From a bacterium (GTDB lineage: Bacteria > ARS69): a stretch of DNA of 8,076 bases. Position numbers and translations under genes: made by a program. Positions within the stretch are counted from its first letter, which is position 1, and each line of letters begins with the position of its first letter. The stretch lies in NCBI GenBank assembly GCA_025774865.1, contig JALGZO010000717.1, positions 1-8,076 on the forward strand. The letters are read 5' to 3'. Positions 3,032-7,907 of the stretch are shown here, in pieces. Under the pieces are notes generated by a model that saw only the letters and a list, made by a program, of their open reading frames with translations, did not search any database and was not told where the DNA came from.

Positions 3032-3059
3032 TTGACGACGCGTTGGCTCGTTCTCTAGT
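3032..3059 (+). promoter_or_regulatory. Sigma70-like promoter for the small plus-strand unit
   Basis: TTGACG (3032-3037, 5 of 6 to consensus) is followed after 16 bp by TCTAGT (3054-3059, 4 of 6). Transcription would begin near 3066, about 110 bases before the 52-codon ORF, and end at the terminator at 3343-3375. The site overlaps the translation start side of the divergent membrane glycosyltransferase gene. Confidence 0.4.
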
Positions 3060-3066
3060 TTCGCCG

Positions 3067-3095
3067 CAACCGGGCGGATCCGCGCCGTCCGGTTG
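3067..3095. promoter_or_regulatory. Inverted repeat at the predicted transcript start (operator or leader hairpin)
   Basis: CAACCGG (3067-3073) and CCGGTTG (3089-3095) form a perfect 7-bp inverted repeat. Between them lies the 10-bp perfect palindrome GCGGATCCGC (3074-3083). The element falls at about +1 to +30 of the predicted plus-strand promoter and inside the divergent intergenic region, so it could be a repressor operator or a leader hairpin. No regulator is encoded nearby. Confidence 0.35.
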
Positions 3096-3157
3096 TCCGT
3101 CGTTTCCTCGGGGCACGTCGCGAGGTCCCCCGCGCGTGACCGTTCGATCCGAGGGGA

Positions 3158-3175
3158 TGGGAGGATGCACTCCCG
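3158..3175 (+). promoter_or_regulatory. Hairpin covering the Shine-Dalgarno of the small basic ORF
   Basis: GGGAG (3159-3163) pairs perfectly with CTCCC (3170-3174) around the loop GATGCA, with a T-G wobble pair outside. The only good SD, GGGAGG at 3159-3164, is inside the stem, immediately before the ATGATG at 3176. A four-codon mini-ORF (ATG at 3165, stop TGA at 3177-3179) overlaps that start and has its own SD-like GAGGGG at 3151-3156. This could allow coupled or conditional translation; that is inference. Confidence 0.3.
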
Positions 3176-3334
3176 ATGATGAGAAGGGCCTTGGTTCAGG
3201 GCGCTTCGATTCGACAGAGGGTACTCCGCCGGCGTCGGATTTACACGAGCTTCGCCGACGCTTGGGAAGCCAGGCGGCACGAACCGGAACGGATTCGGAA
3301 GGGCAAACCGAAGCTGAAACCGAAAACCGCCTGA
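3176..3334 (+). CDS. Small, very basic hypothetical protein (52 aa)
   Basis: I do not recognise this protein. The ORF has 52 codons and carries 12 Arg and 5 Lys against 4 acidic residues, with an RRRR run at 18-21 and the tail RKGKPKLKPKTA at 41-52. A basic tail of this kind suggests nucleic-acid or ribosome binding, which is inference. Support for a real gene is positional: an upstream sigma70-like promoter, an SD (GGGAGG, 11 bases before ATG 3176; a second ATG follows at once), and a stop only 8 bases before a strong intrinsic terminator on the same strand. GC content at third positions is lower than in the neighbouring large genes, so the alternative is that the transcript is a small RNA and the ORF is chance. 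A longer open frame on the same strand (2707-3426) runs through the terminator and is rejected. Confidence 0.45.
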   Translation: MMRRALVQGASIRQRVLRRRRIYTSFADAWEARRHEPERIRKGKPKLKPKTA

Positions 3335-3342
3335 ACGACGAG

Positions 3343-3375
3343 CGCCCCGGATCGCGAGGTCCGGGGCGTTTTTTT
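3343..3375 (+). terminator. Intrinsic (Rho-independent) terminator
   Basis: CGCCCCGGA (3343-3351) and TCCGGGGCG (3360-3368) form a perfect 9-bp stem with an 8-base loop, followed at once by seven Ts (3369-3375). The T-run is on the plus side only, so it terminates rightward transcription, which implies a plus-strand transcript ending here. Confidence 0.85.
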
Positions 3376-3398: not shown

Positions 3399-3662
3399 TC
3401 AGCCGGCTCCGTTCGGGGCGATGTAGATGTCGAGCGGGTAGAACTGACGACCGTCCACGTGCATCTCGACCTGGAACCAGAGACCCGTCACGACCATCGG
3501 TGCCGACGTTTCCAGGGGGGCAACCGTCGACCGTCCGAATGCCGTCCCGAAGAAGTCGACCGGAGCGACCTGGAGCAGTCCGTGCGTGCGGTTCTCGATG
3601 ACGAGCCGGTCCCCCGGCGACAGGGTCACGCGCGGGAGGTCGGTGCCGCCCCACTCGTCCAC
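3399..3662 (-). CDS. Hypothetical beta-rich protein, possibly a lipoprotein with a broken leader
   Basis: I do not recognise the family. From the GTG at 3662 it would be 87 residues with alternating hydrophobic strands (RVTLSPGDRLVIENRTHG at 11-28; MVVTGLWFQVEMHVDG at 57-72; FYPLDIYIAP near the end), suggesting a small beta-sandwich. No metal-ligand pattern of cupredoxins is seen. The same frame continues coding-like upstream of 3662 (WQVVRVVV) back to AACGNRGGARSGP, which resembles the lipid-anchored start of a mature lipoprotein. A leader would begin at the in-frame ATG at 3782 (MRRPVPPALPVP), but a TAA at 3744-3746 interrupts it and no hydrophobic core is present. GTG 3662 lacks a convincing SD. 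Either the gene has lost its signal peptide or translation starts unconventionally. A leader-like RNA and an intrinsic terminator lie upstream on the same strand. Confidence 0.5.
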   Translation of the reverse strand: MDEWGGTDLPRVTLSPGDRLVIENRTHGLLQVAPVDFFGTAFGRSTVAPLETSAPMVVTGLWFQVEMHVDGRQFYPLDIYIAPNGAG

Positions 3663-3789
3663 GACGACCCGGACGACCTGCCACGGACCGGACCGGGCAC
3701 CTCCGCGGTTTCCGCAAGCGGCGGGCGATCGCTCGGTCTGGAATTACGGAACGGGGAGCGCGGGTGGGACGGGGCGGCGCATGCGGACG

Positions 3790-3825
3790 CAGAAAAGGGG
3801 CGGAGTGGCCAGTACTCCGCCCCTT
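3790..3825 (-). terminator. Intrinsic terminator on the minus strand
   Basis: AAGGGGCGGAGT (3795-3806) and ACTCCGCCCCTT (3814-3825) form a perfect 12-bp stem with a 7-base loop. Read on the minus strand the stem ends in TTTTCT; the plus side has no T-run. It therefore stops leftward transcription coming from 3826-4120, and lies about 130 bases before the 3399-3662 ORF, so it could be the end of a small RNA or gene, or an attenuator for that ORF. Confidence 0.75.
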
Positions 3826-3856
3826 CGATCCTGTGCGGGATATCCGCGTCTAGGGT

Positions 3857-3930
3857 TGAGGGGTTGATCTCCACCGAAAACCGGAAGCACACCTCCGAGC
3901 ACCGGTCTGTCAGGAGGAGAGAACCCCTCA
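3857..3930 (-). ncRNA. Candidate structured RNA or leader element
   Basis: Three nested stems can be drawn: TGAGGGGTT/AACCCCTCA (3857-3865 with 3922-3930, 9 bp), TCTCC/GGAGA (3868-3872 with 3916-3920, 5 bp, separated from the first by two bases on one side and one on the other) and ACCGG/CCGGT (3880-3884 with 3902-3906, 5 bp). The first two stack nearly continuously. The minus strand is chosen because the intrinsic terminator at 3790-3825 follows on that strand. No long ORF is supported here, so the stems are not explained by codon use. The class is unknown: I see no SRP, RNase P, tmRNA or known riboswitch signature. The inverted repeats would fold on either strand. Confidence 0.35.
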
Positions 3931-3938
3931 GTCGCCCT

Positions 3939-4112
3939 CTAAGGACATGCAAAGGTGGTGCCGCTCGTGCCCGAATTCTCGAAGAACCTGCAACTCGCTG
4001 TGAGCTCGTCGATTGGCCGAATCGAAGCTCCGCGCGGCGACTCGGCCTTGACGCCCGGACCGTCCTCGTTCGAGGACAATCCTCGAAGAATGTCCTCGAT
4101 CGGGGACAGCAT
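3939..4112 (-). CDS. Possible small hypothetical protein (57 aa)
   Basis: An ATG directly preceded by AGAGGGAGG opens a 57-codon ORF ending in TAG at 3939-3941. The protein starts MLSPIEDILRGLSSNEDG and is hydrophilic and rich in Ser, Gly and Glu, with no membrane segment and no motif I know. Third positions are moderately GC-rich, as expected of coding sequence here. Against it, the purine-rich SD abuts the ATG, and a minus-strand promoter predicted at 4125-4153 would start the message only about six bases before the ATG. Two palindromes (4062-4107) lie inside its first codons. The transcript may instead be a non-coding RNA running to the terminator at 3790-3825. Longer minus-strand frames across this region (to 4219 and 4686) run through the terminator or over neighbouring genes and are not supported. 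Confidence 0.3.
   Translation of the reverse strand: MLSPIEDILRGLSSNEDGPGVKAESPRGASIRPIDELTASCRFFENSGTSGTTFACP
4062..4107. promoter_or_regulatory. Pair of 16-bp palindromes, 30 bp apart (candidate operators)
   Basis: GTCCTCGTTCGAGGAC (4062-4077) is a perfect palindrome around a 2-base centre. GTCCTCGATCGGGGAC (4092-4107) is the same site with one mismatch. The centres are exactly 30 bp apart, close to three helical turns, as expected for cooperative binding of a dimeric regulator on one DNA face. They lie just downstream of a possible minus-strand promoter and upstream of the plus-strand DUF6504-like gene, so they could repress the former or activate the latter. No regulator gene is in the window. 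Confidence 0.45.
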
Positions 4113-4124
4113 CCTCCCTCTGGA

Positions 4125-4153
4125 ATGCTAAACATTTGTCTGGTATCTTTCGA
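4125..4153 (-). promoter_or_regulatory. AT-rich island with a minus-strand promoter-like pair
   Basis: In a strongly GC-rich window, 4124-4151 is conspicuously AT-rich. On the minus strand TCGAAA (4148-4153) and TAGCAT (4125-4130), each 4 of 6 to consensus, are separated by 17 bp, predicting a start near 4118. On the plus strand TATCTT (4144-4149) could serve as a -10 for the DUF6504-like gene, but only a poor -35 (TGGAAT) precedes it. The island may be bidirectional. Confidence 0.3.
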
Positions 4154-4218
4154 TGGATCTCCTTGGAGGCAGGAAACGAGGAGCCGTCGGAAGGGGCCAG
4201 CCCGGGGGACGAACGGCA

Positions 4219-4470
4219 TTGATCGAGAAAATCCAGGAGCCCATCGAGGTCCTCACGAAGTTCGTGGACGGAAGAATCCAGCCGATGCGATTCCGCTGGC
4301 GAGGGCGCGTGTTCACCGTGTCCGAGATCACCGGGCTCTGGGACAAGCGAATCGGGGAACACCGGGCGCACTTCTTCTCCGTGGGAGTGGGGACACGGGA
4401 CTACTACGAGCTCTGCTACCAGGCGCGCACGTCGCAGTGGACACTCGAGAACATCTACCTCGAGGGATGA
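4219..4470 (+). CDS. DUF6504-like protein
   Basis: An 83-residue protein resembling the DUF6504 group of small uncharacterised cytoplasmic proteins. The pattern is EPIEV near the N-terminus (7-11), FRWRGRVFTVSEITGLW (25-41), then HFFSVGVGTRDYYELCYQ (51-68) and WTLENIYLEG (74-83). The conserved aromatic-rich strands and the ELCY/W..E..YLEG tail support the call; molecular function is unknown. I choose the TTG at 4219 because GGGGGA lies about 9 bases upstream and the family match begins right after it. An in-frame ATG at 4153 would add 22 residues, but that stretch has coding-unlike third positions, matches nothing and has no SD. It converges on the large minus-strand gene with 16 bases between them and no terminator. 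Confidence 0.72.
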   Translation: MIEKIQEPIEVLTKFVDGRIQPMRFRWRGRVFTVSEITGLWDKRIGEHRAHFFSVGVGTRDYYELCYQARTSQWTLENIYLEG

Positions 4471-7451: not shown

Positions 7452-7907
7452 TCAGCCCAGCTCCGAAGTGCAGTGCGGGCAACGGGTCGCCTTGATGGGA
7501 ACGTCCGTGAAGCAGAACGTGCAGCCCTTGGTGGTTGGTGCGGCGGGAGGCGCCTCCTCCTCCTTCCGCTTCATCTCGTTCATGCCTTTGATCACCATGA
7601 ACAGAGCGAGCGCGATGATCAGGAAGCTGACGATTGTGTTAAAGAACGCGCCGTAGTTTATGGTAACGGCCCCGGCCGCCTTGGCTTCCTCCAGCGAGGC
7701 ATACGGGGCGGCCGCCTCGGCGCCTTGCTTCAGCACCATGAACATGTTGGAAAAATCGACCCCGCCGAGTGCCAGCCCGATCGGCGGCATGATGACGTCA
7801 GCCACCAGTGACTTCACGATGGTTCCGAACGCCGCCCCGATCACGATCCCGACCGCCATGTCCAGCATGTTGTCCTTGAGGGCGAACTCCTTGAACTCCT
7901 TCAACAT
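7452..7907 (-). CDS. mscL: Large-conductance mechanosensitive channel MscL with zinc-ribbon tail
   Basis: A 151-residue inner-membrane channel that opens on membrane tension to release solutes during hypo-osmotic shock; works as a homopentamer. The N-terminal amphipathic helix [20 protein letters not shown] leads into the pore-lining segment [22 protein letters not shown] (20-41), then a periplasmic loop (about 45-85) and a second membrane segment (about 87-107). After the KRKEEE charge cluster and a Pro/Ala linker, the C-terminus carries C129-x2-C132 and C143-x2-C146 (CTFC and CPHC), a zinc-ribbon-like tail instead of the coiled-coil bundle of E. coli MscL. Similar tails occur in some other bacterial MscL proteins. 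The ATG at 7907 follows AAAGGAG with 9 bases of spacing. It starts 30 bases after the upstream gene stops. Confidence 0.95.

Follow-up and report, generated by a model that had tools for sequence, protein, structure and literature searches.

What does a 345-base stretch of DNA encode when promoter- and terminator-like signals enclose a single, very short open reading frame (ORF)? Such a locus lies at positions 3032–3375 of the contig stretch analysed here (8,076 nt, hereafter the window), and a preliminary description had read it as a short transcription unit, complete in itself, whose product is either a tiny, highly basic protein or a small RNA. The sites it had named (promoter, palindrome at the predicted start, ORF, and terminator) were all found again in their places, and its count of 17 basic (K+R) against 4 acidic (D+E) residues in 52 codons was confirmed; within this stretch the gene for the 52-residue, strongly basic protein forms a complete one-gene unit. 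Comparison of five genera backs the protein half of that reading, and on the aligned sequences we regard the gene and transcription unit at 3032–3375 as well supported.

The comparison set consisted of the window genome and four others (G001, G002, G003, and G004), so that the phylum was sampled by five genomes from five genera (one genome per genus) of one family. An orthologue of the 52-codon ORF occupies a common syntenic place in all five. The G004 locus is on BQJX01000022.1 (Gemmatimonadota bacterium DHS20C21, on whose genome a literature search found no papers) and that of G001 on JAGQIB010000630.1 (Gemmatimonadetes bacterium HKST-UBA01). The G002 and G003 orthologues, weak with the first queries, were confirmed by their position beside the same membrane-protein gene, and these two loci also carry a TTGAC promoter 5′ and a GC-rich terminator-like hairpin 3′ of the orthologue. 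The neighbourhood, common to most of the five genomes within the reach of contigs and matches, comprises genes for a CCA-adding/poly(A) polymerase-like protein, a Trm112-like protein, and a membrane protein, followed by the small gene, an 87-amino-acid antisense gene, and a DUF6504 gene.

A protein search of its own genome showed the small gene to be single-copy, with one further match at chance level. Pairwise identity among the orthologues is 33–60%, against about 51–78% for the neighbouring proteins, and because the alignment of orthologues leaves the most distant one with only 28% identity to the window protein, relatives may escape sequence searches. Outside the phylum, a sample of 381 other genomes yielded none at E ≤ 0.001. 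In the phylum whose PcnB is nearest, 43 genomes lacked the small-gene synteny and yielded only two weak partial matches to the small protein; one of these, in L038, was rejected as a relative, its DNA being judged by eye to be the end of a sigma-factor-like gene. A scan of GTDB contigs, with peptide patterns built from the three closest sequences, returned only two orthologues that were already known.

The ORF (3176–3334, plus strand) was examined for frame conservation and for dN/dS in these relatives. Over the first 36 alignment columns of the five orthologues, the proposed frame had a BLOSUM score of 359, compared with a mean of −100 (sd 97) for column shuffles, none of 5000 reaching 359; the column shuffle destroys codon structure and is thus a simple control, less than a full RNAcode analysis. 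Conservative amino-acid changes were seen in the proposed frame alone, all five other frames scoring negative. Values of dN (0.16–0.75) were lower than those of dS (0.77–1.96) in every pair with an estimable dS, a few saturated pairs giving no comparison. Together, the frame-specific conservative substitutions and the excess of dS over dN indicate that the ORF is a real protein-coding gene under protein-level selection, and the suggestion that a small RNA is the main product is therefore not supported. Its start is bounded in G002 by a stop codon immediately 5′ of the ATG. We regard it as a plain case of a small gene that is real and under selection, and its products as a clearly delimited orphan family: five diverse members, as yet without a family name, from a phylum that has been little studied.

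The −35 element is TTGACG (3032–3037, plus strand), in which TTGAC is invariant in all five genera and stands 144–159 nt 5′ of the ATG. The −10 region (3054–3061, plus strand) can be read either as TCTAGT (3054–3059), with a 16-nt spacer, or as TAGTTT, with an 18-nt spacer; the aligned elements in the relatives are TATGGT (two genomes), TAGTTT, and TAGCGT, with 17-nt spacers. At the other end, the sequence and a terminator scan place an intrinsic terminator at 3340–3375 (plus strand), with a perfect 9-bp stem (3343–3351/3360–3368; 14 pairs by the count of the scan) followed by seven Ts (3369–3375). The site at 3340–3371 has the longest stem listed by the scan of the window. A GC-rich terminator-like hairpin lies 3′ of the stop codon in all five genomes, and folding of the terminator region gave a Stouffer z of −7.5 over the five species. 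One promoter and one terminator around one ORF are accordingly present by sequence at every locus, although three of the relatives have only a weak T-run on the rightward side. The terminator had been offered as strong evidence for a rightward transcript, and for the window genome this stands; a strong rightward T-run occurs only there and in G001, however, being poor in G002 and G003 and, in G004, located on the opposite side of the hairpin, where the convergent neighbour would be served.

The leader contains several candidate RNA structures. The palindrome noted at the predicted start corresponds to hairpin H1 (3066–3096, plus strand), an inverted repeat of 12 pairs including one G-U, whose placement at the transcript end rests on the predicted transcription start. 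Folding predicts a 5′-terminal hairpin for each of the five species, with stem sequences that differ by genus; the stem drawn for G003 differs from the 45-nt minimum-energy fold. Against dinucleotide shuffles, the z values of this region were −3.0, −2.8, 0.1, −3.4, and −0.8 (Stouffer −4.4), three of the five species being significant alone and G001 and G003 lacking individual support. The arms of each H1 paired better with each other than with swapped arms (rank 1 of 120 orders), a test biased upward because the arms were picked from folds. Farther downstream, the Shine-Dalgarno-like GGGAGG (3159–3164, plus strand) stands 11 nt 5′ of the ATG, the relatives having GGAAGG-, AAGAAGG-, or GAGG-like sequences. 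A hairpin had been described over this site, and its 5-bp GGGAG/CTCCC form is indeed present in the window (3159–3163/3170–3174) but, as drawn there, is not conserved in the relatives. What is conserved is another complementary pair just 5′ of the Shine-Dalgarno sequence, H2 (3124–3159, plus strand; GGTCCCC at 3124–3130 and GGGGATG at 3153–3159), both motifs of which are found in all five genomes, near positions −52 and −24 relative to the ATG and at a near-constant distance from it. H2 is conserved by sequence without covariation (within shuffles for the five sequences), and the folding z of its region was not below shuffles.

A possible third hairpin, H3 (3183–3207, plus strand), covers codons 3–10 at the same position in all five species; it is not supported as a selected RNA structure, since its stability does not exceed that of synonymous recodings, and it showed no significant covariation in five sequences. 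A covariance model of H2 plus H3 scored convincingly only at the small-gene locus across the five genomes, where no convincing second copy of the leader was found (best other match, E = 0.07).

The five orthologues share the majority pattern MRRRPFVQGTSxRKRVLRRRRIxTSFxDxWxAL, followed by a variable tail. Structure prediction, of low to moderate confidence (pLDDT 62.6), returned a single helix (residues 12–34) flanked by flexible ends; in this predicted layout, a basic helix containing an invariant Trp would lie between an extended basic N-terminus and a disordered basic tail. Sequence and fold searches of the small protein against Pfam, NCBIfam, PHROGs, and the PDB found no relative, and the fold search, made with the low-confidence model, found no structural match. 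In general shape the predicted protein would nonetheless resemble small ribosomal proteins such as bS22 (mycobacteria, Flavobacterium, and Borrelia; mS38/eL41 analogues), which is likewise tiny, very basic, and helical. The bS22/mS38 binding site is a 16S pocket formed by h2, h27, h44, and h45. Unlike bS22, to which it has no sequence match, the window protein binds the ribosome only hypothetically, and membership in the bS22/mS38 group is not supported by profile search: the COX24_C profile (PF08213), which we take to cover the bS22/mS38 region, does not match it, nor did the profile hit anything in the five genomes at E ≤ 1. The protein is also similar to bS21 in being small and basic and in length, but it has no Pfam match, including to PF01165, and each of the five genomes has a true bS21 gene at another place (product 93–100% identical among the four read out), which rules out a replacement of bS21 by the small protein.

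We thus favour, with a probability of roughly 0.5, a monocistronic, phylum-restricted gene whose small Arg-rich product would bind nucleic acid and would most likely be RNA- or ribosome-associated. A sigma70-type promoter would give rise to a monocistronic mRNA of roughly 310 nt, with H1 at its 5′ end, a leader of ~110 nt, the Arg-rich ORF, and the intrinsic terminator. H1 would probably guard the 5′ end against decay, much like the stabilising hairpin of ompA type in E. coli, likewise a stem-loop at the extreme 5′ end of an mRNA, the start being a predicted one here; mRNAs of E. coli can gain stability from stem-loops at their 5′ ends (Emory et al. 1992, as cited in PMC2777011). Nucleic-acid binding is suggested by a net charge of +9 to +13 in each orthologue (51–58 residues) and by the modest-confidence basic helix, and the molecular role by charge, size, and a resemblance in kind to small ribosomal proteins, RNA or the ribosome being a likelier target than DNA. 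The identity of 33–60% among orthologues, set against that of bS21, argues against a core ribosomal protein, and the fast evolutionary rate speaks for a role that is peripheral or regulatory. If ribosome-associated, the protein would join a recent series of small basic ribosomal proteins overlooked by annotation; bS22 in Borrelia was unannotated until cryo-EM showed it on the ribosome (PMC10618245). The conserved GUCCCC/GGGA pair beside the Shine-Dalgarno sequence may be a site of translation control, possibly autogenous. The leaders that regulate ribosomal protein S15 differ between lineages, to which they are specific, and extend across the Shine-Dalgarno sequence (PMC4137082), and the present locus may likewise have a structured leader at that site of a small basic gene in one lineage; its putative leader differs from autogenous ones in lacking covariation among the five sequences and is unique to the small gene. 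Because neither H2 nor H3 shows significant covariation, autoregulation through the leader is a guess. We think it improbable that the product is a ribosomal or ribosome-associated protein that is new, confined to this phylum, and able to repress its own mRNA by way of the conserved leader; if true, it would be an unannotated ribosome component in a lineage without a ribosome structure.

Other explanations fit parts of these data. The most serious is that the protein is DNA-binding, nucleoid-associated, or transcription-associated, for which its charge and size are equally suitable, and its fast evolution relative to bS21 and its single copy with its own promoter would be in keeping; since it matches no DNA-binding family of Pfam or NCBIfam and its predicted structure contains no helix-turn-helix or ribbon-helix-helix, we hold this to be possible but doubtful. 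A cationic, small, lineage-restricted, and quickly evolving product might instead act elsewhere, as a toxin, as a cationic peptide of antimicrobial-like type, or as a regulator that controls one enzyme by protein binding. Its retention by every one of the five genera at the same chromosomal position, the lack of an antitoxin or export gene among its neighbours, and the finding of no relatives in the phages and plasmids searched make such a peptide unlikely.

That a regulatory small RNA is the main product, the ORF being incidental or secondary, would account for strong hairpins at both ends of a short transcript and for a weak excess of identical synonymous codons over codons 2–12 (29 versus 20.4 expected). 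Given conservative substitution in the ORF frame only, a hairpin within the ORF that is no stabler than synonymous recodings, and an Rfam search of the unit, as the preliminary description had envisaged, in which no family reached the gathering score, it is very improbable, although the RNA may have a dual function, regulatory as well as encoding the protein. Least tenable is a chance ORF among chance signals in GC-rich DNA, with no gene at all. The window promoter does fail the strict consensus rule of the promoter scan, and the window total of eight terminator-like sites is only slightly above, and within about 1.4 sd of, that of shuffles; but the recurrence of promoter, ORF, and terminator-like hairpin at one locus in all five genomes places the unit beyond chance, and the coding test is likewise against it.

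Several neighbouring features were also observed. The 87-amino-acid gene (3399–3662, minus strand) is 60–69% conserved in three other genera and was not found in G003; its product has no Pfam match, and inspection by eye suggests a small domain rich in beta structure. Upstream of it lies a noncoding element (3785–3915, minus strand) that is conserved in G004 and G001 (BLAST pairwise 74–77%; column identity 82% on average). It includes the run GACCGGTGCTCGGAGGTGTG, which is identical among them, and ends on the minus strand, at its 3′ end, in a terminator-like hairpin plus T-run. It matched no Rfam family at gathering score and might serve as an attenuator, as a riboswitch-like leader, or as a small RNA in its own right. 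The small DUF6504 gene (4153–4470, plus strand; match just above the cut-off) lies within the conserved neighbourhood, and a 23-nt stretch just upstream of it (4086–4108, plus strand) is also conserved in G003. Finally, an MscL channel gene (7452–7907, minus strand) encodes a C-terminal Cys-rich tail that resembles a zinc ribbon (CTFCF...CPHC).
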